From a virus: DNA of 37,361 nucleotides. How positions within the stretch are numbered: position 1 is the first letter of the stretch; each line of letters opens with the position of its first letter. Under the pieces are notes generated by a model. It was not told the origin of the DNA. It searched no databases and saw nothing but the letters and a program-made list of their open reading frames with translations. Position numbers and translations under genes: made by a program. This document shows, piece after piece, positions 17,980 to 31,261 of this stretch. The stretch covers positions 1 to 37,361 of IMG/VR virus record IMGVR_UViG_3300025132_000115. One strand, given 5' to 3'.

Positions 17980-17981
17980 CA

Positions 17982-19401: not shown

Positions 19402-19558
19402 CCTTGACAAAAAGGTTCAGGCTGAATGTGAGTGTGGTAGGGAAAAACGAATCGTCACTTTTCGTAACCTTAAAAACAGATGGCCTATTTGTAATAAATG
19501 TAAGCAACCGATGAAGGTAAAAGGTAATGCAATACCCCCTATTTCAACCACCGACTGA
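19379..19558 (+). CDS. tiny zinc-ribbon protein, 59 aa
   Basis: ATG at 19379 inside the end of the preceding gene, stop at 19556-19558 inside the start of polA; it fills the 125-bp interval between them in a third frame. Four cysteines form two knuckles, CECG (residues 17-20) and CNKC (38-41), separated by a basic stretch (REKRIVTFRNLKNRW). This is the layout of a minimal zinc ribbon that could bind nucleic acid or a protein partner such as the polymerase. GATCAGGAAAG follows the start, and no strong ribosome site was seen, so it may be coupled to the upstream gene. Confidence 0.6.
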   Translation: MDQESPSNLDKKVQAECECGREKRIVTFRNLKNRWPICNKCKQPMKVKGNAIPPISTTD

Positions 19559-21458
19559 GTGGGTTATGCCTGATGGCTATCCTGACCTTACTGGTTATAA
19601 AGAGGTTGCTATTGACCTTGAAACACGCGACCCTAATTTGACTACGATGGGTAGTGGCTGGGCTAGAAAAGATGGTCACATAATTGGTGTGGCTGTAGCT
19701 GTGGAAGGAGACCAATGGTACTTTCCCATCAGACACGAGATTGGTCCTAACTTTGATGCAAAACGAACATTAGGGTGGTTACAAGATGTATGCAAAATTG
19801 ATAGGGATTATGTTTTCCATAATGCTCCTTACGATGTTGGCTGGATGCTCGCAGAGGGTGTGCGGGTTTACGGCAGAATCGTTGACACAATGGTCGTGGC
19901 ACCTCTGCTCGATGAAAACAGATTTAGTTACGCATTAAATGCTATTGGTAGGGATTACTTACAAGAGCGTAAAAGCGAAGTTGAGCTAAGAGAAGCGGCG
20001 GCGGCTTTTGGGATTAATGCTAAGAGTGAAATGTATAAACTCCCTGCACATCATGTAGGTAAGTATGCTGAACAAGATGCCGCGCTTACCTTAAGATTAT
20101 GGAATCATTTTAAAAGTTTAATTATTAAAGAAGATATTGAAGATGTGTTTGAGTTAGAACTTAATGTTCTTAAAACAATTATCCCTATGAGGGAACGTGG
20201 TGTTTGTGTAGATGTAACTCGGTGTGAAACTATAAAGAAAGATCTGCTCTTACGCGAAAAACGGTTATTGGATAATATAAAAAGGCAGACAGGCGTTGAA
20301 GTAGAAATATGGGCGGCTGAAAGCGTTGCTAAAGCCTTTGATGCTTTAGACTTGCCTTATAATAAAACTGAAAAAACAGGTGCGCCGAGTTTTACAAAAG
20401 GGTTTCTAACTCACCACCCACATGAAGTAGCACAAATGATAGTGCAAGCTAGAGAATACCAAAAGGCGCGGTCTACTTTTGTGGATACAATATTAAAGCA
20501 TCAGGTAAATGGGCGTATCCATGCCGAGCTACACCCGCTAAGAAGTGATGATGGTGGGACAGTAACAGGCAGATTTAGTTATAGTAACCCTAACCTCCAG
20601 CAAATCCCTGCACGGCATGGCGAAATAGGTCCAATGATCCGTAGCTTGTTTATACCAGAACAAGACTGCTTATGGGGCGCGTTCGACTACTCTAGCCAAG
20701 AACCGCGCATTGTTGTGCATTATGCTAAACTCATGGGCTTCAGAGGGGCTTCAGACTTTGCTGAACAATACAACGCAGACCCCCGCACTGATTTCCACCA
20801 AATGGCGGCTGATATTGTGGGTGTGCCACGCAAACAGGCTAAAGATATCAACCTTGGTTTGTTTTATGGGATGGGAAGTAAAAAGTTAGCGGCGAGCCTT
20901 GGCCTTGAATTTGAAGATGCACAAGATTTATTTGCTACTTACCACGATAAAGTGCCTTTTGTCCGCGAATTAAGTGAATACAGCACGAACAGAGCGAGTA
21001 ATCGTGGGGTTATCCGCACATTGCTGGGGCGTAGGTGTAGATTCGATAAATGGGAGCCAAATAAGTATGGTAGTTGGAAACCAATGACCTACCAAGAAGC
21101 CTACGCTGAGCATGGTCCTGGAATTAAACGAGCATTTACATACAAAGCTCTTAATAAACTCATACAGGGTAGCGCGGCCGACCAAACTAAAGCCGCGATG
21201 GTTGCTCTAGCTGATGAAGGCATACTACCCATGATTCAAGTTCACGATGAGCTAGATATTTCTGTTGAAAGTGAAGCGCAGTCTAAACGTATAGCAGAAA
21301 TCATGGAACATTGCGTGAACCTAGAAGTTCCTTCAATTGTAGATGCAGAGTTCGGTCCTAATTGGGGCGAAGCAAAACAAACTTTCACAGAAAAGCCTTG
21401 GCTTAGAGGAGTAAAAGATGGCGGCACAGAAATGCGGCACAACACCAAACTTTCATGA
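19527..21458 (+). CDS. polA: family A DNA polymerase with 3'-5' exonuclease domain, 643 aa
   Basis: Exonuclease motifs: Asp30-Leu-Glu32 (Exo I), HNAPYD with Asp103 (Exo II) and YAEQD with Tyr180 and Asp184 (Exo III), so proofreading should be active. Polymerase motifs: A, AFDYSSQEPR with Asp387; B (O-helix), RKQAKDINLGLFYGM at 435-449; C, VHDELD with His573 and Asp574. There is no 5'-3' nuclease domain, as usual for phage PolA. The residue equivalent to E. coli Phe762 is Leu443 (codon 20853-20855). Motif A has Pro where cellular enzymes have Leu (ELR). This is the replicative polymerase of the phage. The 3' end overlaps the next gene by 41 bp. Confidence 0.96.
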   Translation: MQYPLFQPPTEWVMPDGYPDLTGYKEVAIDLETRDPNLTTMGSGWARKDGHIIGVAVAVEGDQWYFPIRHEIGPNFDAKRTLGWLQDVCKIDRDYVFHNAPYDVGWMLAEGVRVYGRIVDTMVVAPLLDENRFSYALNAIGRDYLQERKSEVELREAAAAFGINAKSEMYKLPAHHVGKYAEQDAALTLRLWNHFKSLIIKEDIEDVFELELNVLKTIIPMRERGVCVDVTRCETIKKDLLLREKRLLDNIKRQTGVEVEIWAAESVAKAFDALDLPYNKTEKTGAPSFTKGFLTHHPHEVAQMIVQAREYQKARSTFVDTILKHQVNGRIHAELHPLRSDDGGTVTGRFSYSNPNLQQIPARHGEIGPMIRSLFIPEQDCLWGAFDYSSQEPRIVVHYAKLMGFRGASDFAEQYNADPRTDFHQMAADIVGVPRKQAKDINLGLFYGMGSKKLAASLGLEFEDAQDLFATYHDKVPFVRELSEYSTNRASNRGVIRTLLGRRCRFDKWEPNKYGSWKPMTYQEAYAEHGPGIKRAFTYKALNKLIQGSAADQTKAAMVALADEGILPMIQVHDELDISVESEAQSKRIAEIMEHCVNLEVPSIVDAEFGPNWGEAKQTFTEKPWLRGVKDGGTEMRHNTKLS

Positions 21459-22242
21459 TATAGGGATTATATCAGGAGGTTTTGACCCCCTGCACTCAGG
21501 GCATTTGGATTATATTTTATCTGCGGCAAAACAATGTCATAGACTTTACATAGGTGTGAATAGTGATGAGTGGCTCATAAAGAAAAAAGGTAAGGCTTTT
21601 ATGCCCTTAGAAGAAAGAATAAACCTTTTAGAACACTTACACTTACCTTGCGAGTTTTTTGTTGTCCCTTTTGACGATAAAGACGATACCGCGAAGAGCT
21701 TAATAAAAGATGTACTAGCTTGTAATCCTAAAGATTTCATTTGTTTTATGAATGGTGGTGATAGAGATAAACAAAACACCCCTGAGCATGAACTTCTCAC
21801 AGAAATGTCTGATTCATACACACAATATCTAACATTCAACAACGACGTAGGTGGTTCTAATAAGAAAAACTCTTCCAGTGATTTATTAGATAATTGGTCA
21901 AAGGCCAAAACAACTCGTCAATGGGGGTATTACAAAGTTTTAGAACAAAAACCTACTCAAAAAGTTAAGGAGTTAGTGGTTTTTCCAGGAAAATCTTTAT
22001 CTGATCAAAAACATTTTTCTAGAAGTGAACATTGGTACATACTGTCTGGTGAGTTAATTATGCACATGGAAACAGATAAAGCTAAAACTAAACAAGTATT
22101 ATACCCACATCAAACAATAGTCATTCCTCGACAAACATGGCATCGCGCTGAAAACATTAATGCAGAGCCTTGCCATGTGATAGAAATACAATATGGAGAT
22201 GTATGCGAAGAAGAAGATATAGAAAGAAGAAACCATGAGTAA
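21418..22242 (+). CDS. nucleotidyltransferase-cupin fusion (sugar nucleotide synthesis), 274 aa
   Basis: The N-terminal domain (about 13-155) is a cytidylyltransferase-like nucleotidyltransferase: GGFDPLHSGHL with the HxGH motif at 26-29, LEERINLLEHL, and NKKNSSSDLL as the second nucleotide loop. After a short linker, residues 168-270 form a cupin like the C-terminal part of mannose-1-phosphate guanylyltransferase/mannose-6-phosphate isomerase: QWGYYKVLE, then KHFSRSEHWYILSGE with His199 and Glu204, WHRAEN with His242, and IEIQYGDV. The protein should activate, and perhaps isomerise, a small sugar or polyol phosphate. GAGGAG before 21418 sets the start. It probably supplies the donor for the upstream glycosyltransferase, though no direct evidence exists. 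Confidence 0.8.
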   Translation: MAAQKCGTTPNFHDIGIISGGFDPLHSGHLDYILSAAKQCHRLYIGVNSDEWLIKKKGKAFMPLEERINLLEHLHLPCEFFVVPFDDKDDTAKSLIKDVLACNPKDFICFMNGGDRDKQNTPEHELLTEMSDSYTQYLTFNNDVGGSNKKNSSSDLLDNWSKAKTTRQWGYYKVLEQKPTQKVKELVVFPGKSLSDQKHFSRSEHWYILSGELIMHMETDKAKTKQVLYPHQTIVIPRQTWHRAENINAEPCHVIEIQYGDVCEEEDIERRNHE

Positions 22243-22750
22243 TTCGTTAAATATAAAAACCCTGACAACAGCTTGGGATGCACAATTTTTATTAAGATAT
22301 CATACGGTTGCAATGCAATCGGAAAGGCAAACCGTGGGAGCGCATTCATACGCAGTAAGTGTTTTAATAGACCAATTATGGCCTGACAGCACTAAACAAT
22401 TAATTATGGCGGCACTGTATCATGATGTGCCAGAAATAATTTTAGGTGATATTCCTGCTACGGCTAAGTGGAATTATCCTGAAGTACAACAAGCCTTTGA
22501 AAAAGCTGAGAAAAAAGTGTTTGATGACCTTGGGTTAATATTTGTACTCAGCCCAGAAGAAAAAATACGATTGAAAATGGCTGATATGTTAGAGCTCGTT
22601 TTATACACACACCGTCATTCTCAAGGTAGCGACCAAATGAAATTGATTATGCACTCTGGTATAAGTTACCTACATCAAAAATTCTCTTCTGAGCCAGATT
22701 TTGAGCCAGTAAAGGCAGTGTTAGCTCATTACAATTTAGGGGTAAGTTGA
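22235..22750 (+). CDS. HD-domain phosphohydrolase, YfbR-like 5'-deoxynucleotidase, 171 aa
   Basis: HD-superfamily metal ligands are present: His37 (VGAHSYAV), His63-Asp64 (ALYHDVPE), then Glu67 and Asp72 (ILGDIPA), and a later Asp in LKMADMLELV. The size and the PEIILGDIPA block match YfbR-type 5'-deoxyribonucleotidases, which dephosphorylate dNMPs. In a phage that modifies pyrimidines such an enzyme could remove unmodified dCMP or dUMP/dTMP, or recycle host nucleotides. It overlaps the preceding gene by 8 bp and the next by 1 bp. Confidence 0.85.
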   Translation: MSNSLNIKTLTTAWDAQFLLRYHTVAMQSERQTVGAHSYAVSVLIDQLWPDSTKQLIMAALYHDVPEIILGDIPATAKWNYPEVQQAFEKAEKKVFDDLGLIFVLSPEEKIRLKMADMLELVLYTHRHSQGSDQMKLIMHSGISYLHQKFSSEPDFEPVKAVLAHYNLGVS

Positions 22751-23055
22751 TGAATTGTATTAAATGTGGTGCAAAAAGCAAAGTTTATGAAAGCAGAACT
22801 CATCCTTCGGCATTTGGAGAAACTATGATGCGTAGAAGGGAATGCACTAAATGCAAAACCCGATACAAAACAATAGAAATCATTATGCCTGAACAATCAA
22901 AACCAGTAGCCGTGCCTAAACCTGAAAAGAAACGCAGAAAAAAGGTAAGGAAACGTAAACCGATGTCTCTTCATCAAATTGAACCAGATTTTGATAATAT
23001 GACAGATGAAGAAATCGAAGCATGGATTACTAGAGGAAAAAACTATTATGTCTAA
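22750..23055 (+). CDS. NrdR-like zinc-ribbon protein without ATP-cone, 101 aa
   Basis: The ATG at 22750 overlaps the previous stop (TGATG). The first 45 residues copy the NrdR zinc ribbon: Cys3 and Cys6, an ESRTHP turn, then MRRRECTKCKTRYK with Cys32 and Cys35. The NrdR ATP-cone is missing; instead there is a strongly basic Lys/Arg linker (about 62-75) and an acidic C-terminus with DEEIEAWI. It may bind DNA or a host factor. A truncated mimic of the host ribonucleotide reductase repressor is an attractive but unproven idea, in line with the nucleotide genes upstream. Confidence 0.7.
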   Translation: MNCIKCGAKSKVYESRTHPSAFGETMMRRRECTKCKTRYKTIEIIMPEQSKPVAVPKPEKKRRKKVRKRKPMSLHQIEPDFDNMTDEEIEAWITRGKNYYV

Positions 23056-23106
23056 TTTGCTCTTAGTTTGTACCTATTTTATCTTAGGGCATAAGTTTTG
23101 CAGTGT

Positions 23107-23136
23107 TTAAGGCGTTATATGTATGTAACACCTTAA
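23107..23136 (+). promoter_or_regulatory. inverted repeat in gap before small gene
   Basis: TTAAGGCGTTA (23107-23117) and TAACACCTTAA (23126-23136) pair at 10 of 11 positions around TATGTATG. It lies 16 bp before the next start. It may be an operator or end the upstream transcript, but no T-run follows. Confidence 0.45.
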
Positions 23137-23152
23137 CCTAATGGAGTGTATG

Positions 23153-23332
23153 ATGGAAGAAGCAGTATGTTGTGAAGTAAGTGTATCTTTATTTAACCCA
23201 GTAGAGTTTAAAGATACTTTTATTGTAGAAACTTCAGATAGATATGAAGCTATGAAGTATGTTTTAGGGAGTTATTCTCAAGAAACACTTTCTTATTTAA
23301 CTGATGTAAAAACCAAACTTATCATTGAGTAA
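23153..23332 (+). CDS. small protein of unknown function, 59 aa
   Basis: Three in-frame ATGs occur at 23141, 23150 and 23153; I prefer 23153, which leaves 6 bases after GGAG at 23143-23146. The protein begins MEEAVCCEVSVSLFNPVEF and looks like a small alpha/beta domain. A pair of adjacent cysteines is the only notable feature. It has its own upstream inverted repeat and stands between the nucleotide block and the accessory genes. Family not recognised. Confidence 0.6.
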   Translation: MEEAVCCEVSVSLFNPVEFKDTFIVETSDRYEAMKYVLGSYSQETLSYLTDVKTKLIIE

Positions 23333-23341
23333 GTAAGAACA

Positions 23342-23395
23342 GTCTTCTACAATTAGCTATTGTATATTAGGGTATTCTGCAGAAAGGGAGTGCTT
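23342..23395 (+). promoter_or_regulatory. promoter-like element and YAGAAAG leader hairpin
   Basis: GTCTTCTA (23342-23349) is followed by TATTAG at 23365, the same spacing as before the gene at 29412. TACAAT/ATTGTA flank TTAGC-like text between them. GTATTCT (23372-23378) pairs over 7 positions, three of them GU, with GGAGTGC (23387-23393) around GCAGAAAG. Confidence 0.5.
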
Positions 23396-23908
23396 ATGAA
23401 TATCTTTATAGTTAATTGGGATCACACTATTTGTGCTCAATGGCATTGCAACAAACACGTTGTTAAGATGCCACTTGAGACTACCCAAATGCTCAGCACT
23501 GTCCACCACAGGTACAGTAATGATGGACCATTTTTACCTGTTCATCAAAAACACCCCTGTACTTTGTGGGCAGGGCAAACGATTGAGAATTACCGTTGGC
23601 TTTGGCGGTTAGGTATCGCATTATGTAAAGAGTATACTTATCGCTATGAAAAAACCCATGCTTGTGAAAGAATTCTTGCAATGCTTCGTTGTCCTCCTGT
23701 AGAATTACAAGCGAGGGGGTTTACAAAACCCGCTCAAGCAATGCCCGATGAATATAAACATTCTGATACCCTCATGGCATACCAGAATTATTACATAGGA
23801 GAGAAAGCGAGGTTAGGTGTATGGCACAAAAGGCCAGTTCCCCCCTTCATGGAGGAGATAATGTTATCCCGTTCATCCGACGAGAAAAACAATCAGACCC
23901 CATCATAG
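23396..23908 (+). CDS. phage protein, possible pyrimidine-dimer glycosylase family, 170 aa
   Basis: The ATG at 23396 follows AGAAAGGGAG; the longer in-frame ORF from 23360 lies over the promoter. Conserved-looking blocks are CAQWHCNKHVVKMPLETTQM, KHPCTLWAGQTIENYRWL, CKEYTYRYEKTH and AQAMPDEYK. I know this pattern from a common phage family that is sometimes annotated as pyrimidine dimer DNA glycosylase (PF03013). The conserved His, Cys and Glu residues suggest an enzyme, but I cannot confirm the T4 endonuclease V catalytic arrangement. If correct, it would repair UV damage. Confidence 0.6.
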   Translation: MNIFIVNWDHTICAQWHCNKHVVKMPLETTQMLSTVHHRYSNDGPFLPVHQKHPCTLWAGQTIENYRWLWRLGIALCKEYTYRYEKTHACERILAMLRCPPVELQARGFTKPAQAMPDEYKHSDTLMAYQNYYIGEKARLGVWHKRPVPPFMEEIMLSRSSDEKNNQTPS

Positions 23909-24072
23909 AGGAGAAAAATTTTATCGTGACAGAACATGAAGTAGAGATTTTGCTTTGCTCGCTCTGTGGATCGGGGTCATTTCATCTAATCTCAGGTATG
24001 GGAGGACAGATAGGATGCAAAGAGTGTGGATACCTCGTGGGAGCTAAATGGACTTCTAATATGGAAGAATAA
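23821..24072 (+). CDS. small zinc-finger-like protein, 83 aa
   Basis: Two CxxC pairs, CSLC and CKEC, lie in the C-terminal half around GSGSFHLISGMGGQIG, forming a compact zinc ribbon. The ORF starts inside the 3' end of the preceding gene (88-bp overlap); the recognisable protein may begin nearer NVIPFIRR, where GGAGGAG lies just upstream but no in-frame ATG was found, so the start is uncertain. Small zinc ribbons of this kind are frequent in phage accessory regions and often bind nucleic acid. No specific function can be given. Confidence 0.55.
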   Translation: MAQKASSPLHGGDNVIPFIRREKQSDPIIEEKNFIVTEHEVEILLCSLCGSGSFHLISGMGGQIGCKECGYLVGAKWTSNMEE

Positions 24073-24082
24073 ACAAGATATT

Positions 24083-24159
24083 ATAGGTATGGTCTATCAA
24101 TAAGTCCACACCTATATTAATAAATGTAGTTAAACAACGCTCGTAGAAAGGAGCATGAT
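24083..24159 (+). promoter_or_regulatory. inverted repeat, promoter-like element and YAGAAAG hairpin
   Basis: ATAGGTATGG (24083-24092) pairs with CCACACCTAT (24106-24115) at 9 of 10 positions; the loop holds CTATCAA, a relative of the promoter box, and TATTAATAA follows. GCTC (24139-24142) pairs with GAGC (24151-24154) around GTAGAAAG; ATG is at 24160. Confidence 0.5.
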
Positions 24160-24540
24160 ATGCAAACTATTGATTTATCTGGGTTTACTGGTACTACTGA
24201 TAAGTATGTCCATAGCCTACCAATGACCCCCGACCTGTTACTTACGGAGGGAGTTAAATACTTTGCCGAAGAAGCTGGAGCCTACTGGTTTATGGATATT
24301 GTGGCTACTGAGTTTGTTCCTAAACTCAGTGACGAAGATTATATTATCTTTATCCAAGTAACTGTTGATAGCGATAATGGTGCTGTTATTATAGGTAGCG
24401 ATGGTGATAAGGGTGATGGTCCTGTAATACTGCATACTCGCACTATTGAGTATACTGACCTGCCCACTAACTCTACTTTCAATTTCATATTGACGGTAGA
24501 TTACCAAGGTACTACGTTGCTATTACCGAGTGAGTACTAA
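24160..24540 (+). CDS. DUF6876-like protein, 126 aa
   Basis: The order LSGFTGTTDKYVHSLPMTPD, LLTEGVKYFAEEAGAYWFMD, FIQVTVD and TRTIEYTDLPTNSTFNFIL follows the pattern I know for DUF6876, a family common on plasmids and phages: a start like L-S-x-F-x-G-T, then V-K-Y-x-A-E-x-x-G-A-Y-W. It is acidic and mixed alpha/beta, without cysteine or membrane segment. The function of the family is unknown. It is the first gene of a run of small genes to 25863. Confidence 0.75.
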   Translation: MQTIDLSGFTGTTDKYVHSLPMTPDLLLTEGVKYFAEEAGAYWFMDIVATEFVPKLSDEDYIIFIQVTVDSDNGAVIIGSDGDKGDGPVILHTRTIEYTDLPTNSTFNFILTVDYQGTTLLLPSEY

Positions 24541-24541
24541 A

Positions 24542-24754
24542 ATGGTTATCGGTGGTTACTCCATGGAAGATAAGCAGTTTAACGGTGAGCGTTGTATCAC
24601 CGTTAAACAGCATGAGTCTGGGTGGTCTTTCTTTTTGCAAGGTGAGACCGCACAGGATTTTTGCCGTGAATGGGAAATCTTTAAGTTGACTACTTGTGGT
24701 CTTAGCTTTGAAGATTTCTTATACGAAAACGACTATAACCTTTGGCTCCAGTAG
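24542..24754 (+). CDS. small protein of unknown function, 70 aa
   Basis: The ATG at 24542 comes one base after the previous stop; an in-frame GTG at 24530 is an alternative. The protein is acidic and rich in aromatic residues (GWSFFLQGE, FLYENDYNLWLQ), probably a small beta-sheet fold. No motif recognised. Confidence 0.6.
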   Translation: MVIGGYSMEDKQFNGERCITVKQHESGWSFFLQGETAQDFCREWEIFKLTTCGLSFEDFLYENDYNLWLQ

Positions 24755-24764
24755 GAGGTACGAT

Positions 24765-25031
24765 ATGTACTCAGCACAAGTTTATTATAACTCGCGTGAG
24801 GGGCATTCCCTCACACCTATGTATCCTAGAATAGGATTGTTAGAAACTTATCTACATTATACTGGTTTAGTTGATAATGTTGATGATGTTAAAGAAATTG
24901 TAATCTTAAAAGGTGGGCGTCGCAAGATGCCCACTATCCACGGTTATTATGACTGGGTTAAAGGTAAACTCAAATTAGATAAGAGTAAGCCAGTTATGAT
25001 CCACAATATTTTGTATGGACTAGGGGATTAA
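24765..25031 (+). CDS. small protein of unknown function, 88 aa
   Basis: The start at 24765 is set by TAGGAGGT just upstream; the longer ORF from 24696 lies within the preceding gene. The protein begins MYSAQVYYNSREGHSLTP and is basic toward the C-terminus (KGGRRKMP, KGKLKLDKSK), so nucleic-acid contact is possible. No known family recognised. Confidence 0.65.
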   Translation: MYSAQVYYNSREGHSLTPMYPRIGLLETYLHYTGLVDNVDDVKEIVILKGGRRKMPTIHGYYDWVKGKLKLDKSKPVMIHNILYGLGD

Positions 25032-25034
25032 AAT

Positions 25035-25226
25035 ATGGTTGAGTGGGTAGATCCAAGATTGAATCTTCAAACCGTTGTACCCTATAAGGTGCAAGAAGAT
25101 GGTTTTATCTATGGTGAGTTTCATCGGTTAAAGTACGCAATCGTTTTTGCCAAAGCTCTGCAAAAAGAGTTAGGTACTGATGTGAGTATACATGGACCAA
25201 ATGGATGGGAGGAGTACGATGGGTAA
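25035..25226 (+). CDS. small protein of unknown function, 63 aa
   Basis: Begins 3 bp after the previous stop and overlaps the next start by 8 bp. MVEWVDPRLNLQTVVPYK is followed by a helix (YAIVFAKALQKEL) and an acidic end. It looks like a compact alpha/beta protein. No motif recognised; the tight packing supports it being real. Confidence 0.6.
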   Translation: MVEWVDPRLNLQTVVPYKVQEDGFIYGEFHRLKYAIVFAKALQKELGTDVSIHGPNGWEEYDG

Positions 25227-25440
25227 AGTAAAAGAGCTTTGGATGAACGAGCTTGAAAAGTTGCAAGATGATTACTGCGAGGCTAACATTACTGAAGAAA
25301 AGTTTAGACGCAGTATGGCTAGCCTTGGAGTAGATTGTATAGATATTGATTGCTATATAATTGAAGCGCAACCATTGAGGGCGGTTAATCAAGCATTTAA
25401 ACCGTTTTTTGATATAAATGGCAAATCTAAAGTGCAATAA
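25219..25440 (+). CDS. small helical protein of unknown function, 73 aa
   Basis: The ATG at 25219 has GGGAGGAG upstream and overlaps the previous stop by 8 bp; the longer ORF from 25192 has no site. Residues 1-40 are a charged helix (KELWMNELEKLQDDYC, ITEEKFRRSMASLG). Two later cysteines are not in a metal pattern. No family recognised. Confidence 0.65.
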   Translation: MGKVKELWMNELEKLQDDYCEANITEEKFRRSMASLGVDCIDIDCYIIEAQPLRAVNQAFKPFFDINGKSKVQ

Positions 25441-25609
25441 ATGTGAGCGCAAAGCAGAGGTAGAAACAAAATCTTCTCTGCTTTGTACCTCTTGTTGGTA
25501 TAAAGATTATGTAACGCTCTCTAGAAAGGAGACGCAGAATTATGGAATTAGACCTCTTAACCGTGATTATGACAGTAATCAGCGTTCTAGCTCTTTTGTG
25601 AGGAATTAA
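25418..25609 (+). CDS. possible small zinc-binding protein, 63 aa, C-terminal half doubtful
   Basis: The first 30 residues (CNKC and CTSC pairs) make a believable zinc ribbon, similar in kind to the 59-aa protein at 19379. From about residue 33 the text becomes polar and disordered. There the DNA also contains a leader element and a complete 19-codon gene in another frame (25542-25601), so the tail may be read-through of sequence under selection for something else. The ORF ends in a TAATG overlap with the next gene. No clear ribosome site was seen. Confidence 0.4.
   Translation: MANLKCNKCERKAEVETKSSLLCTSCWYKDYVTLSRKETQNYGIRPLNRDYDSNQRSSSFVRN
25518..25532 (+). promoter_or_regulatory. YAGAAAG leader hairpin
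   Basis: TCTC (25518-25521) pairs with GAGA (25529-25532) around the loop TAGAAAG. The preceding AACGCTC text also matches leaders at 24136 and 29388. The ATG of a 19-codon ORF follows at 25542. Confidence 0.55.
25542..25601 (+). CDS. 19-aa hydrophobic membrane peptide
   Basis: Reads MELDLLTVIMTVISVLALL: a short acidic start and then an unbroken hydrophobic helix long enough to enter a membrane. It is preceded by the same AGAAAGGAG leader hairpin used by larger genes here, with normal spacing (25523-25531), which is the main evidence that it is translated. It lies within a longer, doubtful ORF in another frame. Such tiny phage peptides can act on host membrane proteins, but no function can be assigned. 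Confidence 0.5.
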   Translation: MELDLLTVIMTVISVLALL

Positions 25610-25863
25610 TGGCTATTGATTATACACAACTGTTTCCTGTTGGGGATGATGTAACTCACCGCCTTTGCCCTGAATGTGCGGGTGATGGTCGCGTTGAATA
25701 TGAACGTGCTGTTATAGATTATCAAAACGGTGGTTATCTACAAGGGTATATGGATGATTGCGAAACTTGTGGAGGTTGTGGCGAAATAGAAATAGATTAC
25801 GAAAAACATTGTATTGTAGATGAGATAGGTAATCTATATTGGAAGCCAGATGAAAAATTTTGA
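25609..25863 (+). CDS. DnaJ-like zinc-finger protein, 84 aa
   Basis: Contains CPECAGDGRV and CETCGGCGEIE, two CxxCxGxG-type repeats as in the zinc-binding domain of DnaJ chaperones, spaced by about 29 residues. There is no J-domain, and the usual four repeats are reduced to two, so one zinc is expected. Similar short proteins occur in many phages. GAGGAATT precedes the ATG. Function unknown; a zinc-dependent protein or nucleic-acid contact is likely. Confidence 0.75.
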   Translation: MAIDYTQLFPVGDDVTHRLCPECAGDGRVEYERAVIDYQNGGYLQGYMDDCETCGGCGEIEIDYEKHCIVDEIGNLYWKPDEKF

Positions 25864-25874
25864 TGACAACAAAA

Positions 25875-25971
25875 GACTTATCATTATAAGTCAGTTATGG
25901 CATATTATACTTAATGGCAAGGGGAGGTCTCTTGTCATATAACAACTGACCACTCAAGAAAGGAGTAGGTT
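25875..25971 (+). promoter_or_regulatory. promoter-like element and YAGAAAG leader hairpin
   Basis: GACTTATCA at 25875 and TATTAT at 25903-25908 fit the promoter family exactly. GACTTAT and ATAAGTC (25875-25892) are perfect inverted arms over the upstream box. Near the start, ACTC (25952-25955) pairs with GAGT (25963-25966) around AAGAAAG. Confidence 0.6.
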
Positions 25972-26544
25972 ATGAACGAGAAAGTAGTTCCCGATGATAA
26001 TATGGTTGATGGTGTTTGTGCTAGTTCTGGGTTGCCTAGTGATAGCGAGGTAGATAATGCAGTATGTACTGATATTGCCGCCCGTGATGAGTTTGACCCT
26101 ACTAAGCATGTTCAACATGAACAGATAAAAGCACAAGCTCAGCGTATGAGTGATGTGCGTTCTAGGTTTGAAAACCTTGGTGCTGATATGCAACATATCA
26201 TGACTCTGCTTTATGGTTTGCAAGACCGTGTTTCACGGTTTGAACAACTGTTTGATGAAGTAGGGGCTCCTGTAAAAGGTATGTCTGTGCGTGAGCTAGA
26301 ACAATTTGAGCCTATGTATTCAGGGCAAGAAAACATGCGAGCCGCTGGTAAAACAGTTGATGATCTATACTGCCGCATTATCGACCTTGAAAATGAAGTT
26401 GAAAGTGTTCGTGAAGAAAGTATTAGCAGTAATGATTACGACCCTGATGAGTGGGTACGGCAAAGTGACCTTGCTGATGAAGTAACTAATGCTATCCAAG
26501 AGCGTGTTACTTTTAATGCTGAAATTACAGCTGAGGCAAATTAG
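25972..26544 (+). CDS. acidic coiled-coil protein of unknown function, 190 aa
   Basis: The N-terminal 45 residues are acidic and probably disordered. Residues about 45-100 form a long helix with heptad spacing (QRMSDVRSRFENLGADM, LQDRVSRFEQLFDEV), and a second helical segment lies near 130-150 (LYCRIIDLENEVESVREES). It is therefore likely to oligomerise. No catalytic motif. It is the first gene of a three-gene operon that ends in a probable DNA-binding regulator. Confidence 0.7.
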   Translation: MNEKVVPDDNMVDGVCASSGLPSDSEVDNAVCTDIAARDEFDPTKHVQHEQIKAQAQRMSDVRSRFENLGADMQHIMTLLYGLQDRVSRFEQLFDEVGAPVKGMSVRELEQFEPMYSGQENMRAAGKTVDDLYCRIIDLENEVESVREESISSNDYDPDEWVRQSDLADEVTNAIQERVTFNAEITAEAN

Positions 26545-26546
26545 TC

Positions 26547-26819
26547 GTGGCTACTTACAGTGATGTGAGGGGGGCTGTTTCACATCTACTAAAAATTGCC
26601 GCAAGAGAATGGGAACTTGAACAAATTCTCGGTAATGTCCCCCCTAAACCTTTTGGAGATGACCGTGCTTACGGTCTTCTCGCCTACTCCCTTGCTACCG
26701 TCTGTTTCCGCAGTCCTGAAGCAAGGGTAATACTGGAAAGCATGATTGCTAACAAAGCTAGAGAAATAGCTTTAATGGAAGAAAGGACCAAAAAACATGG
26801 CAGATCCAGAGCAGTATAA
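26547..26819 (+). CDS. small helical protein of unknown function, 90 aa
   Basis: Starts at GTG two bases after the previous stop. Helical and Ala-rich (VSHLLKIAAREWELEQIL, YGLLAYSLATVCF), ending in a basic tail (ERTKKHGRSRAV). It overlaps the next gene by 23 bp. The basic tail might contact DNA. No family recognised. Confidence 0.6.
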   Translation: MATYSDVRGAVSHLLKIAAREWELEQILGNVPPKPFGDDRAYGLLAYSLATVCFRSPEARVILESMIANKAREIALMEERTKKHGRSRAV

Positions 26820-27273
26820 ATCGGTATCACTTGACCTTGATACCTACAATCTACTTAAAGCTGTGGCAGAGGCTGAGTGTCGTAGTATTGGGTTGCAGAT
26901 ACGATGGATGATTAAAAACGGTATGGTAAATCCAACCAGCCCTAATGTATCGCCATCTGCACTTATCCCCGCACACCAGCCGATTCCTTCAATAAAAGCT
27001 GTGCAGCGACGTAAAGGTAACAAGAAATTATTTACCTCGGGTGCGACATGTGAGATTTTGTTGAGGTTGTTCAGTACAAATGCAACACTGACTGCGAGTG
27101 ATTTCGTAGATACAGATATAGAAGACCCAAGTCATGCTTTATATAATCTGTATAAGCGTGGTGATGTGCAACGTCTTGGTGAGGGTAAACCTTATCGATA
27201 TCATATTGCCGTCCAAGGTGTTGCTAAAGCTCGTGAAATTTTACGCAGGAGGGAACGAGAGGATGCGGCGTAA
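26797..27273 (+). CDS. probable DNA-binding regulator: ribbon-helix-helix plus winged-helix-like domain, 158 aa
   Basis: Residues about 7-42 (YKSVSLDLDTYNLLKAVAEA and the following helix) fit a ribbon-helix-helix fold: a short beta strand, then two helices. After a Pro-rich linker comes a basic segment (VQRRKGNKK), and residues about 80-150 (EILLRLFSTNATLTASDF, HALYNLYKRGDVQRLG) look like a winged helix-turn-helix. The two-domain layout is unusual. It is the last gene before the terminator and the repeat-rich gap at 27385-27763, so it is a good candidate to bind the repeats shared with the gap at 8920. Confidence 0.6.
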   Translation: MADPEQYKSVSLDLDTYNLLKAVAEAECRSIGLQIRWMIKNGMVNPTSPNVSPSALIPAHQPIPSIKAVQRRKGNKKLFTSGATCEILLRLFSTNATLTASDFVDTDIEDPSHALYNLYKRGDVQRLGEGKPYRYHIAVQGVAKAREILRRREREDAA

Positions 27274-27352
27274 AAATAGGGCTTTGGGATAAAGTAACAC
27301 TTATGCTAGAGTTTTAAACGTCAGTTAATGACATATTCCTCCCTTAGACTAA

Positions 27353-27384
27353 ACCCCCAATCAATACTGGTTGGGGGTCTTTTT
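27353..27384 (+). terminator. strong intrinsic terminator
   Basis: ACCCCCAA (27353-27360) and TTGGGGGT (27371-27378) form a perfect 8-bp stem with a 10-nt loop, followed by CTTTTT. It ends the operon of the putative regulator. Confidence 0.93.
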
Positions 27385-27506
27385 ACCACTAAACACTATT
27401 CATGACCTAAAAAAGAGGCCGCTCAGACGCCGCTCGATGCCCTCAAAGCACATGGGTAGGGGGTAAGTAGGGGGTAAATTTTGACCAATAAACATGGTTT
27501 CTGAGC

Positions 27507-27525
27507 CACTTTGCTATATAGGACC
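27507..27525 (+). repeat. repeat element A, copy 2
   Basis: CACTTTGCTATATAGGACC; 15 bp inside it are identical to 8935-8949. It also forms an inverted pair with 27716-27734. Confidence 0.75.
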
Positions 27526-27653
27526 AAAAGACGGATGCAGTAAAATCTGTTTTTTAAGGTTGGATAATATACAATATCTGACTATACACATATCTTCAAT
27601 GAGTTAGCACATGAATTACGAAGATTGATCCAATATCTTGTTCAATAGACAGT

Positions 27654-27672
27654 AACTTTCTCTGTCCGCGCG
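27654..27672 (+). repeat. repeat element B, copy 2
   Basis: AACTTTCTCTGTCCGCGCG differs from 9015-9033 at one position. A GC-rich core in AT-rich surroundings. Confidence 0.75.
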
Positions 27673-27715
27673 GTTTTGATTAGAAGGAAAATTTAATTTT
27701 ATGTTTTTCGTTTTT

Positions 27716-27734
27716 GGTCCTATTATACAAAGTG
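27716..27734 (-). repeat. inverted copy of element A
   Basis: Its complement matches 27507-27525 at 15 of 19 positions, with the outer parts perfect. The pair encloses about 190 bp including element B. Confidence 0.65.
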
Positions 27735-27763
27735 TCCCATGTTAGAAGAGGAGAACATGCAAA

Positions 27764-28300
27764 ATGGCTCTAGCCAAAGCTACTCACAAACCCACGATTG
27801 AAGTCGTCGCAAATCCTAGAAAAGAAAAACAGATCACGCCCAAGCAAGAAGAATTTGCACGATTATATGTTTGCGAGGATATTTCACAAACAGAGGCCGC
27901 TGTCCGTGCTGGGTTTAGTGTGAAGTCAGCCCATGCTATTGCCTCACAATTACTCAACGGTGTGCGATACCCCCATGTGGTTGCAAGAATCCGTGAGTTA
28001 AAACAAGAGTTGTCTAAAAAATACGAGGTCAGTTTTGAAGGTCACGTCAAAAAACTTGCTGAGATCCGCGATGCCGCGATGACTGGAGGAAATTTTGCCG
28101 CCGCCGTCGCTGCCGAAAAATCACGAGGCCAAGCCGCAGGGATCTATATTGATCGTAAAGAAATCCTGCATGGTAAAATTGACCAAATGAGTCGCGATGA
28201 AGTAATGCGTGAAATCAAACGAATTCAAGAAGAGTTCCCAGCTCTCGCGGTAGTTGCTGAGGGAAATATGATGATAGAGCATGATGAGGGTGATAAGTAA
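27764..28300 (+). CDS. terS: terminase small subunit, 178 aa
   Basis: Contains the terminase small subunit pattern KQITPKQEEFARLYVCE followed by a helix-turn-helix (ISQTEAAVRAGFSVKSAHAI, about 40-62), which recognises the packaging site, and a helical oligomerisation part with YEVSFEGHVKKLAEIRDAAM. Length is normal for the Terminase_2 family. The gene is separated from the large subunit by about 3.7 kb of small genes, which is uncommon. The repeat-rich gap immediately upstream could include the packaging recognition site. The ribosome site GAGGAG lies 10 bases before the ATG in a small hairpin loop. Confidence 0.88.
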   Translation: MALAKATHKPTIEVVANPRKEKQITPKQEEFARLYVCEDISQTEAAVRAGFSVKSAHAIASQLLNGVRYPHVVARIRELKQELSKKYEVSFEGHVKKLAEIRDAAMTGGNFAAAVAAEKSRGQAAGIYIDRKEILHGKIDQMSRDEVMREIKRIQEEFPALAVVAEGNMMIEHDEGDK

Positions 28301-28301
28301 A

Positions 28302-28393
28302 GAGTTATCATAAAAACTCAAATATGCCATAATAAGTATGGTAGTAAATGAGCTACCTCTATATGTCAAACCACTCTAGAAAGGAGCGATGAC
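28302..28393 (+). promoter_or_regulatory. promoter-like element and YAGAAAG leader
   Basis: GAGTTATCA at 28302 and TAATAA at 28330-28335 fit the 28-nt register. CTC (28374-28376) pairs with GAG (28384-28386) around TAGAAAG, only 3 bp. An outer stem ATGTCA/TGACAT (28363-28368, 28390-28395) would cover the start codon. Confidence 0.5.
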
Positions 28394-28666
28394 ATGAACT
28401 ACTTTAAACAAACTAGCGACGCCGTATTAGACGGTTGGGTTGACTACCACGCAATACAGCCGACACACCTTGAGGTAGGTGATGACAAAGTATTGTGTTG
28501 CCTTGATGATTTGAGGGCAATAAGCATAGTTGGTTTTGAGCATGAGACGCACGTCACTATTACTAACACTAATGCGTTAGACGGTTGTGTCACTTGTGAA
28601 CACTCAACAATAGTTGCTGAGGAGCCGCACTTATTTACACTCAAGCAGTGGCTCAAACAGTATTAA
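28394..28666 (+). CDS. small protein of unknown function, 90 aa
   Basis: Clean start after AGAAAGGAG. Several His and Cys residues (LCCLDD, CVTCEH) could bind a metal, though spacing does not fit a known finger. The rest is beta-rich (HVTITNTNALDG). It sits alone between two promoter-like elements in the terS-terL interval. No family recognised. Confidence 0.65.
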   Translation: MNYFKQTSDAVLDGWVDYHAIQPTHLEVGDDKVLCCLDDLRAISIVGFEHETHVTITNTNALDGCVTCEHSTIVAEEPHLFTLKQWLKQY

Positions 28667-28674
28667 ATAAACCC

Positions 28675-28760
28675 GACAGCAAACGAAAACAAAAGACTTA
28701 TCGTTTGCTGTCAGCCCTGCTACTTTATAATTATAGCAATACTCACAGAAAGGAGCCGCT
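28675..28760 (+). promoter_or_regulatory. 12-bp inverted repeat, promoter-like element and YAGAAAG leader
   Basis: GACAGCAAACGA (28675-28686) and TCGTTTGCTGTC (28701-28712) are perfect 12-bp arms. The loop and right arm cover GACTTATCG (28695), which is in register with CTTTATAAT at 28723-28731. CTC/GAG (3 bp) flank ACAGAAAG (28745-28752). Confidence 0.6.
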
Positions 28761-28976
28761 ATGATAAAACCTAAAGCTGAAACCCACGAGTTCAATGATG
28801 GTAAATCTCAAACCATATTGGACTTTTCCCGCGTCAATGAAGCATGGCTCGTGTGGCGTCAGGATCCCGGAAGTCAGGGTAATGTAAAAATCCACCCTAG
28901 TTATGATGAGGCCAAGCGCGATTACGATAACCGCGTTGATGCCATACAAATGATGGAGGCACACGATGTTGTATGA
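28761..28976 (+). CDS. small protein of unknown function, 71 aa
   Basis: Starts after AGAAAGGAG. Contains LDFSRVNEAWLVWRQDPG and a charged helix at the end (DEAKRDYDNRVDAIQMM). No cysteines. It overlaps the next gene by 11 bp, so the two are co-translated. Family not recognised. Confidence 0.6.
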   Translation: MIKPKAETHEFNDGKSQTILDFSRVNEAWLVWRQDPGSQGNVKIHPSYDEAKRDYDNRVDAIQMMEAHDVV

Positions 28977-29154
28977 GTGGACAAAAAAGCTAGGTCAGCA
29001 ACACTGGTCTATTCCTGGATCCCATGAGGGTACTCTCTGTGGGATGCCGATGCTCGGTAACAATTATGCAAAGCATATAGATGAGGAAGACAAAACACCT
29101 TGTCCGCAGTGTGCTCACCAAGCGCAGTTGTATCGGTTAGATGAGTCAGCTTGA
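28966..29154 (+). CDS. small His/Cys protein, possibly zinc-binding, 62 aa
   Basis: GGAGG lies a few bases before the ATG. Potential ligands are a His and Cys in HEGTLCG and CPQCAH near the C-terminus, plausible for one zinc. It overlaps the following gene by 14 bp. No family recognised. Confidence 0.6.
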   Translation: MLYEWTKKLGQQHWSIPGSHEGTLCGMPMLGNNYAKHIDEEDKTPCPQCAHQAQLYRLDESA

Positions 29155-29338
29155 TTACATAGTGCAGGACACCCAGACGGGCAAAAAGTTCGTCTGGGGT
29201 TTACGTCGTGTACTGAAAGAAATTAATCGAGACAGGTCGGAAGACTGGACAAACTACGATGAGACCGATTGGACAGAAGGATGGAGCCATTGGGTTGATG
29301 GTTATAAAATAGTCGGCTTTGTCAGTAAAACAAGATAA
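29141..29338 (+). CDS. small Trp-rich protein of unknown function, 65 aa
   Basis: Starts inside the end of the previous gene. Rich in Trp (WGLRR, DWTNYDETDWTEGWSHW) and mixed in charge, with a beta strand near the end (YKIVGFVS). The ribosome site is weak, so coupling to upstream translation is likely. No known family. Confidence 0.55.
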   Translation: MSQLDYIVQDTQTGKKFVWGLRRVLKEINRDRSEDWTNYDETDWTEGWSHWVDGYKIVGFVSKTR

Positions 29339-29343
29339 CAAAA

Positions 29344-29411
29344 GAGGTGTCTTCTATTGTCTGCACTGCTACTTTATAATTACAACAACGCTCGCAGAAA
29401 GGAGCTGACTA
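29344..29411 (+). promoter_or_regulatory. promoter-like element and YAGAAAG leader hairpin
   Basis: GAGGTGTC at 29344 and CTTTATAAT at 29372-29380, in register; the GCTACTTTATAATTA block also occurs at 28719. GCTC (29390-29393) pairs with GAGC (29402-29405) around GCAGAAAG. Confidence 0.6.
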
Positions 29412-29717
29412 ATGATACAGTTTGTAGATATGAATGAAGATGGTGATATGGTGGTTACTAACGAAGACCCTAGCCGCCTCATGTTGTTAACGACTTTGTG
29501 GTTTACGGACACCACTATGGTTGATGGCACACCATTTACACCTGAGCCTGAGGTACACATGGTATCGTGGACAGATGAGTTAAGGCAACGTGCCGAGTTG
29601 GCAAATCGCATCAATGCTCATAACGAGTGGGCAAGTGAGCAGGATGGTAGGCCAGTTGTCAAGTTTGCCAAGCAACAAGTCGTGCTTATCACGCCAACTA
29701 CGACGGAGCTTGTGTAG
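29412..29717 (+). CDS. small acidic protein of unknown function, 101 aa
   Basis: Clean start after the leader hairpin. Acidic and beta-rich in the first 60 residues (EDGDMVVTNEDPSRLMLL, FTPEPEVHMVSW), then a helix (DELRQRAELANRINAHNEW). Stop overlaps the GTG start of the nuclease gene by one base, so the two may work together. Family not recognised. Confidence 0.65.
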   Translation: MIQFVDMNEDGDMVVTNEDPSRLMLLTTLWFTDTTMVDGTPFTPEPEVHMVSWTDELRQRAELANRINAHNEWASEQDGRPVVKFAKQQVVLITPTTTELV

Positions 29718-30160
29718 TGGCGACTAAGCCTGAGTCCACGCTGTGGAAAAATCTCCGTGAGGGGACTAAAGACCTAGGTGTGTTTTGGACACGCCTAGAG
29801 TCTTGGTCTAGTCCTGGAGTGCCTGACTTGCACGGTATACTTGATGGTCATGCTTTTTGGCTTGAATTGAAAGTCCACAGGTTAAACTCACTAAAGAAGA
29901 TTACGCTTCGTCCCCACCAAATTGCGTGGCAGATAAGATATAGCGGATATTCTGGAAACGTCTGGAACTTGGTTAGTCATCCTTCGTGCCGAACTATAAA
30001 TATATTTCACGGTTCGAGGGCGATGGAGATTGCTGGACAAACGGAGGATAAAGGACCCATGATTCCGGACTGGAGTTCGGGAGTTCCTTACGATTGGACG
30101 GGAGCCATCAATCATATTCTATCATCATCTCGTCCCTTCATAAAGGAGAGAGACCTCTAG
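29717..30160 (+). CDS. VRR-NUC-like PD-(D/E)xK nuclease, 147 aa
   Basis: GTG start overlapping the previous stop. The core reads SPGVPDLHG (Asp37) then FWLELKVH (Glu50, Lys52), the D-ExK triad of the PD-(D/E)xK fold, followed by LRPHQIAW, a helix motif common in VRR-NUC and related phage resolvase-like nucleases. The length fits a single domain. A tail of about 60 residues is less conserved in appearance. It may resolve branched DNA before packaging or cut foreign DNA; its position between the terminase genes favours the first. Confidence 0.8.
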   Translation: MATKPESTLWKNLREGTKDLGVFWTRLESWSSPGVPDLHGILDGHAFWLELKVHRLNSLKKITLRPHQIAWQIRYSGYSGNVWNLVSHPSCRTINIFHGSRAMEIAGQTEDKGPMIPDWSSGVPYDWTGAINHILSSSRPFIKERDL

Positions 30161-30312
30161 TTTCGTCATCTTTCATCTTCTATTTAGATACCCTCGTCAT
30201 CATTCTTCGTCATTCATTGTCAGTAGAAGATAAAAGACGATTCGCGAGGTACGATCTTTTGATGATGAAAGATGATGACACCGACAATTAATGAGGTTAA
30301 TTGATAATTAAA
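30161..30312. other. low-complexity non-coding interval with nested inverted repeats
   Basis: Dense in CGTCATC- and GATGATG-type short runs. CATCTTTCATCTTCTA near 30167-30182 is largely complementary to TAGAAGAT and AAAGACGA near 30224-30240, and also to GATGATGAAAGATGATG near 30261. A 65-codon ORF crosses it but looks like a product of the repeats. No gene accepted. Confidence 0.45.
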
Positions 30313-30394
30313 GACTTGTCAATAAAACTCGGCCGTGCTACTCTTACATCATAAGCAATGCAGCTTATGGACTATGTCGTAGAAAGGACATATC
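30313..30394 (+). promoter_or_regulatory. promoter-like element and YAGAAAG leader hairpin
   Basis: GACTTGTCA at 30313, and CTCTTACAT at 30341 in register. TATGTC (30373-30378) and GACATA (30387-30392) form six Watson-Crick pairs around GTAGAAAG. Here the usual GGAG is changed to GGAC and the 5' arm has changed to match. Confidence 0.65.
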
Positions 30395-30814
30395 ATGACA
30401 ACTAAAACTGTAAAATCTTCTCCTAAGGCAAAAGCCGTCGTTAAATCTGCTGAGCTCATTGTCACTGACAAAGAGATCACCTATCCCGAAATATGGGCGT
30501 TTATCCAAGAGCATGCTGGTGGCAATGAGGCGAACGTCAAAATTGTGCCTCTTGCAAATGTGGATACCGACAGCACCACTCCTGTCCCGTTCGGCTATGG
30601 TGGCAAGGCGGGAGGCGTCAGGCAAACCATACAAGACTGGATGCTCAAAGGCGTTGATGGCGACACATCGTTAAAGGCCGCGCTCAACAAGGCCGCGCCT
30701 CTTGGTCACTCACGCAAAAAGCCGACGTGCTTGCATGCTTTGATGCACGGTGGTTATTCACCCTCTAGCAAATACTGGATGACACCATACGTCAAGCTCG
30801 TCGTCCAAGGTTAA
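30395..30814 (+). CDS. conserved protein of unknown function, paralogue 1, 139 aa
   Basis: The first 25 residues are Lys/Ala-rich and likely disordered. Then follow EITYPEIWAFIQEH, VPFGYGGKAGGVRQTIQDW and CLHALMHGGYSPSSKYW. From EITYP onward it shares about 70 of 111 residues with the protein at 31262 (counted by eye). No known catalytic motif; conserved Trp, Cys-Leu-His and GGYSPSS suggest a defined binding site. It has its own promoter, leader hairpin and terminator, so it is an independent unit. Its codon and base composition seem more GC-rich than those of the paralogue. Confidence 0.75.
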   Translation: MTTKTVKSSPKAKAVVKSAELIVTDKEITYPEIWAFIQEHAGGNEANVKIVPLANVDTDSTTPVPFGYGGKAGGVRQTIQDWMLKGVDGDTSLKAALNKAAPLGHSRKKPTCLHALMHGGYSPSSKYWMTPYVKLVVQG

Positions 30815-30823
30815 CTCACATAG

Positions 30824-30852
30824 ACGGGACGTCAGGAGGGCGTCCCGTTTTT
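30824..30852 (+). terminator. intrinsic terminator after paralogue 1
   Basis: ACGGGACG (30824-30831) pairs with CGTCCCGT (30841-30848), 9-nt loop, followed by TTTTC. Confidence 0.9.
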
Positions 30853-31099
30853 CTCCCATCCCATCCCTGAGGACGAGGGATGATGATTCCCATTCCTGAG
30901 GACGATCCCCATAGGTATGTACTCATACCTATGTATCATTCATCATCTATCATACTCAATCGTCGTCGTCAATCATCCTCGGTCTCGGTTGACGATAATA
31001 GACGATCCTGGGAGAACAGCGGATTAAACAAGACTGGTCCAGCTGGTGTTGCTGGTGTTAGGCAATAATTATAGCAACCGCATAAAAGGAGGCATGGGT
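30853..31099. other. repeat-rich non-coding interval between the paralogues
   Basis: Contains two copies of CCTGAGGACGA 29 bp apart (30866, 30895), the inverted pair ATCCC/GGGAT (30863-30881), a 9-bp stem ATAGGTATG/CATACCTAT (30911-30932) with a 4-nt loop, and many GTCGTC/GATGAT runs. A 62-codon ORF at 30880 shows biased repeat-derived text and is not accepted. Confidence 0.5.
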
Positions 31100-31171
31100 A
31101 TGTGGCTATTTGTAATAGCTATAGTATTACTAGGCTTAATAGGCTTAATGGGGCTAAATAAAAATAAATAA
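31100..31171 (+). CDS. 23-aa hydrophobic membrane peptide
   Basis: MWLFVIAIVLLGLIGLMGLN followed by KNK: one transmembrane helix with a positive end. AAAAGGAGG at 31084-31092 gives 7 bases to this ATG, an excellent site; an in-frame ATG at 31094 would be too close. Positioned between the two paralogous genes. A small membrane effector or holin-like peptide is possible; nothing more can be said from sequence. Confidence 0.6.
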   Translation: MWLFVIAIVLLGLIGLMGLNKNK

Positions 31172-31177
31172 AAATAA

Positions 31178-31261
31178 CGCTTGTTATTGACATTTAGCTG
31201 TGGCATAAACTAGGTATACCCCACAAGGGGCAACGCATAAACCGTAGAAAGGGTTTACAAA
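31178..31261 (+). promoter_or_regulatory. promoter and YAGAAAG leader hairpin
   Basis: A TTGACA box at 31187-31192 with TAGGTATAC 18 bases later resembles a sigma-70 promoter; CGCTTGTTA at 31178 and TAAACT at 31206 also fit the 28-nt family. CCCC-ACAA-GGGG is a small hairpin at 31219-31230. TAAACC (31238-31243) and GGTTTA (31252-31257) form six pairs around GTAGAAAG. Confidence 0.7.

Follow-up and report, generated by a model that had tools for sequence, protein, structure and literature searches.

A conserved 19-codon frame nested in a marine-phage gene behind a covarying leader hairpin, a candidate translational operator

In phage lambda, the gene Rz1 is nested out of frame in Rz, and its product is a lipoprotein with a lipobox cysteine. 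MS2-type operators are hairpins near the ribosome site that are read by a protein. The embedded sgl genes of ssRNA phages are described as short, unannotated ORFs that lie within a larger gene but in a different frame, often +1, carry their own Shine–Dalgarno (SD) sequence and encode one hydrophobic segment (PMC7693330). Over 2 million small phage genes, function unknown, are known (PMC11323111). According to the account in PMC3014915, the gene 43 operator of T4 and RB69 is a small hairpin at or near the ribosome site in which letters of the loop are read by a protein, and it serves one autoregulated gene. The same account describes RegB of T4, the one phage factor that handles the GGAG ribosome-site motif shared by early messages; secondary structure is inhibitory at RegB sites, the strong ones of which extend to GGAGRAYARAA (PMC3014915).

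We analysed a virus record of 37,361 bases, hereafter the window, in which a preliminary description had proposed a 19-codon membrane microprotein nested in another frame and preceded by a full leader. Such an ORF is present, from the ATG at 25542 to the TGA ending at 25601, in the +1 frame of a 63-codon ORF (25418–25609). The locus comprises the following features.

25418 to 25609, + strand: 63-codon ORF with the pattern CxxC...CxxC; purifying selection over codons 1–33 and none over the tail that overlaps the microprotein gene
25518 to 25532, + strand: leader hairpin of the microprotein gene, TCTC-TAGAAAG-GAGA; invariant in 12 haplotypes; predicted RNA fold −7 kcal/mol, z −2.06
25525 to 25531, + strand: SD sequence AAAGGAG of the microprotein gene, part in the hairpin loop and part in the 3′ arm
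25542 to 25601, + strand: microprotein gene, 19 codons, MELDLLTVIMTVISVLALL; start and hydrophobic peptide kept in 12 of 12 haplotypes; dN/dS 0.14
25609 to 25863, + strand: next gene, 84 aa, with CxxCxG repeats; its ribosome site (GAGG) and the stop of the microprotein overlap

The two CxxC pairs of the 63-codon ORF are zinc-ribbon-like, and its best matches in Pfam were far under the cut-off. The ORF ends in TAATG, so that its stop overlaps the start of gene 25609. The window holds four ATG ORFs of 15–40 codons with a strong SD, and two of the four have a GRAVY of at least 1.5; in 60 dinucleotide shuffles, a mean of 2.3 such short SD-preceded ORFs was obtained and none reached this GRAVY.

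The leader had been described as identical in type to those of larger genes, and this held. The exact sequence AGAAAGGAG occurs eight times on the + strand of the window and not at all on the − strand, compared with 0.24 copies per strand expected under an order-2 Markov model. Every copy precedes a start codon, seven times that of a larger gene and once that of the microprotein. With one mismatch allowed, AGAAAGGAG was not enriched (16 matches versus a shuffle mean of 10.1; reached in 8 of 100 shuffles). At the microprotein, 10 nt separate GGAG from ATG, the longest spacing among the eight exact leaders (5–9 nt at the other seven), and initiation may for this reason be weaker than at the other leader genes.

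By its DNA polymerase, the phage is related to the HTVC023P-type podoviruses, a group described in PMC9599517. The nearest named phages (023Pt_psg01, DSL-LC04, HTVC027P and HTVC023P) are 50–56% identical in this protein, with 50–52% for HTVC023P and HTVC027P. Neither blastn with positions 24500–27300 nor tblastn with the 84-aa and 63-aa neighbours found a relative among 50,697 phage records. One GTDB contig matched, from a Flavobacteriaceae MAG, which is weak evidence on the host. The window also encodes a 5-hmdU DNA kinase helical domain (16115–17011) and a thymidylate-synthase-like protein (18059–19036), which suggests hypermodified thymine in the phage DNA.

We searched viral contigs for relatives with two neighbouring proteins and the phage DNA polymerase as baits, and in addition with the conserved N-terminal part of the 63-codon ORF as a profile and with the leader as a DNA pattern. 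Profile and leader pattern reached the same 17 contigs, a set that is partly conditioned on the leader because one of the two peptide patterns of the profile search covers leader codons. An extra contig obtained with the leader pattern (L124) was unrelated and was dropped. With the independent bait 25972, 16 of 18 loci reached the site, and the leader was present in all 16.

Stops or indels in relatives had been named beforehand as the sign of a spurious frame. None disrupted it: all 17 contigs with the 63-codon ORF keep the SD leader, the ATG, M-E and a hydrophobic peptide of 18–23 residues. They fall, window included, into 12 distinct haplotypes with seven distinct peptides (18, 19, 21 or 23 residues). 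The ATG is invariant across the haplotypes. All homologues start with M-E, have a GRAVY of 1.67–2.15 and contain no K, R or H, and Cys is absent from all seven distinct peptides. Among eight relatives of gene 25609, two distant ones (L008 and L009) were without the leader. PolA-anchored loci that have a neighbour homologue and are without the zinc-ribbon gene yielded no homologous hydrophobic micro-ORF between the flanking genes in a scan restricted to AGGAG-like SDs; L072–L075 have other hydrophobic small ORFs there. The 21- and 23-residue homologues matched no PHROG family, and the 21-residue homologue matched no Pfam family at E≤1; these scans require at least 20 residues, and the 19-residue peptide of the window falls below this limit.

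The check proposed in advance was a synonymous-site bias in the nested frame. We counted substitutions in three independent close pairs (window–L006, L020–L118 and L014–L024). The 99 bases before the leader carry 46 substitutions, of which 23 hit third codon positions of the 63-codon frame and 21 are synonymous in it. Over the microprotein, none of the 20 substitutions lies at a third position of the larger frame and all 20 are nonsynonymous in it, whereas 13 are synonymous for the microprotein and none is at its codon position 2. All seven amino-acid changes in the microprotein replace one hydrophobic residue by another, so that the changes are synonymous or conservative in this frame alone. 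This pattern indicates that the constrained frame switches at the leader (upstream versus overlap, Fisher p 3.6e-5, a test that rests on 20 substitutions in three lineages). Nei–Gojobori dN/dS was 0.14 for the microprotein; before the leader it was 0.22 for the larger frame and 0.83 for the +1 frame. In a random-placement test, the synonymous excess in the microprotein alone was modest per pair (P 0.042 and 0.017). Taken together, conservation and frame-specific selection, both read from sequence comparison, support a real microprotein and the view that evolution protects a hidden 19-codon frame inside a larger marine-phage gene.

Across all 11 full-length haplotypes, synonymous changes are absent from the leader codons for LSRKE and YG, and the invariant Cys and Tyr codons upstream of the leader do vary synonymously. 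The invariance of UCUC-UAGAAAG-GAGA in the 12 haplotypes freezes the LSRKE codons of the other frame. We considered whether nothing is translated from 25542, so that the conserved block would consist of the hairpin and the zinc-ribbon C-terminus (LSRKETxxYG) and the hydrophobic frame would be a by-product. The leader block is indeed invariant and in frame with the larger ORF, and synonymous recoding of the tail gave an open hydrophobic +1 frame in 6–35% of trials per haplotype. This explanation is, however, difficult to reconcile with an overlap in which every change is nonsynonymous in the larger frame and none falls on its third position, with the invariant ATG, or with the six-fold degenerate codons among the invariant leader codons, and we regard it as very improbable.

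The preliminary description had also taken the second half of the 63-codon ORF to be non-coding. With regard to protein-level constraint this was correct (0 of 20 changes synonymous), but none of the 12 haplotypes has a stop of the larger frame within the overlap; the frame ends 2–16 bases past the microprotein. Most hydrophobic codons have T in the middle. In the other frame this T falls on the third position, where it rules out stops, and the openness is therefore partly automatic. When the peptide was recoded at random, the larger frame was open in 23–100% of trials, depending on the haplotype. The openness thus mildly exceeds what the peptide imposes, and the larger frame is probably still translated through; such read-through perhaps serves coupling to gene 25609.

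Coupling could also be the main purpose of the short ORF itself, as a leader ORF for gene 25609 with re-initiation at the adjacent ATG and an incidental peptide. The microprotein stop lies 0–17 nt before the next start in 11 of the 12 haplotypes, the larger frame likewise stops at or near the start of gene 25609, and several relatives have little SD ahead of the next gene. In L006 and L007, however, a tRNA-Leu(UAA) gene (3408–3491 in L006) separates the microprotein from gene 25609, whose start in these two relatives has a TAGGAG of its own. The peptide is unchanged in both, which argues against a mere coupling ORF. Coupling would moreover leave unexplained why no change falls on codon position 2 and why replacements are hydrophobic only. 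We consider this role for the short ORF unlikely.

As a rule, +1 frameshifting of the ribosome depends on an SD close to the site of the shift. A programmed +1 frameshift with AGAAAGGAG as stimulator, joining the N-terminal part of the zinc ribbon to the hydrophobic tail, would be in keeping with the internal SD-like sequence upstream and with the co-occurrence of both parts in 12 of 12 haplotypes. At the junction, however, ATG-GAA is conserved and a conserved slippery codon is lacking, and the leader is identical in type to the leaders of true start sites. We give this possibility very little credence, and return to independent initiation at the ATG of the microprotein.

The preliminary description underestimated the leader, which is more than an SD. 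It forms a predicted RNA hairpin (also written C(GUAGAAAG)G) directly before start codons, whose loop, RYAGAAAG or NAGAAAG, is conserved and whose stem of 4–6 bp covaries, and it is common to many genes of the clade. Besides the hairpin of the microprotein, the window contains the following leader hairpins.

14383 to 14399, + strand: TACTC-TAGAAAG-GAGTA, gene 14407 (DUF932)
15492 to 15509, + strand: TTTCC-ATAGAAAG-GGAGA, with one G-T pair, gene 15485
24139 to 24154, + strand: GCTC-GTAGAAAG-GAGC, gene 24160
25952 to 25966, + strand: ACTC-AAGAAAG-GAGT, gene 25972
28374 to 28386, + strand: CTC-TAGAAAG-GAG, 3 bp, gene 28394
28742 to 28755, + strand: CTC-ACAGAAAG-GAG, 3 bp, gene 28761
29390 to 29405, + strand: GCTC-GCAGAAAG-GAGC, gene 29412
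30373 to 30392, + strand: TATGTC-GTAGAAAG-GACATA, compensated stem and weaker SD, gene 30395
31238 to 31257, + strand: TAAACC-GTAGAAAG-GGTTTA, compensated stem and the same loop as that of gene 30395, gene 31262

Seven leaders of the window pass the hairpin criteria, compared with a mean of 0.03 and a maximum of 1 in 100 simulated windows. These seven hairpins span 14,383–31,257, the replication and accessory region; none of them precedes the portal, terminase or large left-end genes. The 6 bp stems of genes 30395 and 31262 are fully compensated. ORF 15485 probably starts at the ATG at 15515, behind a hairpin that was overrun by the mechanical ORF call.

Two further observations concern the same region. 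A diverged 49-base repeat (GANAACAAAAGANTTATC...) at 14047, 25865, 28292, 28685 and 29334 lies upstream of five genes with the AGAAAGGAG leader and is perhaps a promoter or operator element. A second micropeptide, MWLFVIAIVLLGLIGLMGLNKNK, is encoded at 31100–31171 behind AAAAGGAGG in an otherwise gene-poor gap, and was found identical at six places in the retrieved loci, the closest relatives among them.

Covariation was examined in leaders of the related loci, excluding reverse-oriented duplicate loci and the HTVC027P and 023Pt_psg01 stretches. The loci are related, so that the counts are not independent events, and the permutations keep the make-up of each column and not relatedness. CTC occurs at most 10 bases upstream of 114 of the 160 AG-AAAGGAG leaders, of 4 of 108 AAAGGAG leaders without AG and in 13 of 359 cases in a control stretch. 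In 120 unique CTC/GAG leaders, pair 4 is Watson–Crick in 82 (A-T 41, G-C 21, T-A 20) versus 41 expected. In the window list of this comparison, the microprotein leader appears twice, in two CTC registers. Pairs 5 to 7 of this subset were without covariation, as were eight unique CTC/GAG leaders with a 3-base gap (1 versus 0.75).

When CTC/GAG was not required, leaders with the RYAGAAAG loop also showed the stems GTC/GAC, ATC/GAT, ACC/GGT, TCC/GGA and TTC/GAA. Among 215 RYAGAAAG leaders followed by an ORF of 30 codons or more, 87 have at least four Watson–Crick pairs; the corresponding numbers are 7 of 83 for RYAGAAAG copies with no ORF behind them and 2 of 251 for leaders that carry one of six control loops. 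If G-U pairs are counted, the stem reaches 4 bp or more in 127 of the 215. When the 3′ arms were shuffled 500 times, the maxima for pairs 1–4 were 154, 118, 89 and 82 versus 168, 176, 161 and 144 observed, and pair 5 equalled the shuffle maximum (89). Sliding one arm by one base abolished pairs 2–4; pair 1 survived a slide of −1, where the neighbouring base is also G. The NAGAAAG loop class, to which the microprotein belongs, is weaker (20 of 366 leaders versus 8 of 326 non-leaders), and its covariation rests on the CTC/GAG set with a gap of 1 (24 of 29 versus 13 expected). Being invariant, the hairpin of the microprotein contributes no covariation of its own.

In 80 PolA-anchored loci (1.24 Mb), 295 hairpins were found on the coding strand and one on the other, counted whether or not an ORF followed, and 78 of the 80 loci have at least one leader hairpin. 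The stretches of HTVC027P (28,162 b) and 023Pt_psg01 (27,248 b) have none; 023Pt_psg01 has one hairpin without a start behind it. A pattern scan with one version of the hairpin matched 31 stretches and gave 27 new loci (L137–L163), five of which showed no leader hairpin on re-scan. L152, L155, L156, L160 and L162 have hairpins and no similarity to the 41 window proteins tried. Leader-like hairpins that combine the AGAAAG loop with other stems were seen in L152, L153, L154 and L156, none of them close to the window clade. Distant homologues of window proteins occur in L153 and L154, and L152 comes from a 107-kb contig without a match among the 41 proteins.

In leaders with an altered stem, GGAG is lost (GGAC, GGGT) but base pairing and loop persist, so that it is structure and loop that are conserved. 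The loop presents the AAAG of the SD. An RNA element is favoured here over a DNA operator, since the loop comes in two lengths, G-U pairs are tolerated and the position before start codons is fixed. In the simplest mechanism, a phage or host RNA-binding factor would bind the hairpin, which is thus a candidate translational operator. Through this shared element, the microprotein would be translated along with a group of small accessory genes. A 5′ stabiliser, or display of the ribosome site without a binder, are possible alternatives. We put forward tentatively, at slightly less than even odds, that this marine phage clade has a genome-wide regulon in which one trans-acting RNA-binding factor acts via the SD-displaying RYAGAAAG-loop hairpin, with the nested 19-residue micropeptide among its targets.

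Other identities were compared with the leader. The look of the leader prompted a comparison with T7 and T3 promoters, and a T7-like phage promoter was dropped: the stem covaries, and no RNA polymerase was among the proteins scanned in the window, which is a fragment. For a sigma-70 promoter, TATA-like boxes were seen by eye before two leaders, and promoter-like sites were at chance level (32 versus a shuffle mean of 42). Because GGA/GGAG varies among the leaders, CsrA-type and RegB-type sites were also discarded. Rfam gave no match in the window at the gathering score, and at E≤5 six weak matches in 24000–31400, none overlapping a leader hairpin. The hairpin did not appear in the literature on operator hairpins as searched, which covered few subscription papers.

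Our preferred reading, to which we assign a probability of about three in four, is that 25542–25601 is a real, independently started gene for a 19-residue membrane micropeptide on a disposable zinc-ribbon tail, with a phage-wide hairpin as its ribosome site; operator function of the hairpin and a membrane role of the peptide are what we infer. The peptide carries no positive charge; it has an acidic head and a hydrophobic core of ~12–15 residues (by eye), rather few for a segment that spans a bilayer. It would most likely insert in the inner membrane of the host and act there. It may act in host takeover or superinfection control, which would fit the place of its gene among accessory genes.

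The main alternative for the function of the peptide is that it depolarises the membrane as a toxin or acts in lysis, like the products of embedded phage lysis genes or type I toxins. Type I toxin peptides have an antisense RNA as antitoxin; promoter-like sites did not exceed chance and pointed to no antisense RNA or antitoxin. The gene sits among small accessory genes upstream of the terminase, and its product has neither basic residues nor Cys. Hydrophobicity, an own SD and +1 nesting do match the criteria for embedded single-gene lysis as given in PMC7693330. On balance, a toxin or lysis role seems improbable to us, and we retain the reading of a micropeptide that would act at the inner membrane.

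Frame-specific selection thus reveals a conserved hidden gene of 19 codons, in a size class outside the family scans used. The leader hairpin is a compact candidate for a phage post-transcriptional regulon and may be of use as a marker for true starts and micropeptides in uncultured phages. Neither hairpin nor peptide was found in the literature on embedded lysis genes and small-gene catalogues as searched, in which few subscription papers were covered.

Like sgl genes, the microprotein lies in the +1 frame of a larger gene, has its own SD and is hydrophobic. Unlike them, it belongs to a relative of tailed phages, has 18–23 residues (ORFs over 25 were screened in the sgl study, as described in PMC7693330) and is conserved in relatives. 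As with lambda Rz1 in Rz, one phage gene is nested out of frame in another, but the seven distinct peptides contain no Cys and hence no lipobox cysteine of the Rz1-type o-spanin. Unlike the entries of the small-gene catalogue, the microprotein is below the 20-residue scan minimum and lies inside another ORF.

With the RegB/GGAG system, the leader shares a ribosome-site motif that is common to several phage genes. Unlike in RegB sites, the stem is conserved here and GGAG can change (GGAC, GGGT); in place of the unpaired GGAGRAYARAA of the RegB consensus, the microprotein has GGAGACGCAGAA, partly in the predicted stem. In form, the leader resembles the gene 43 and MS2 operators, which are also small hairpins at or near the ribosome site with conserved loop letters. 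Unlike the gene 43 operator, the hairpin described here stands at 7–10 genes of a single genome, with varied, covarying stems and one loop.
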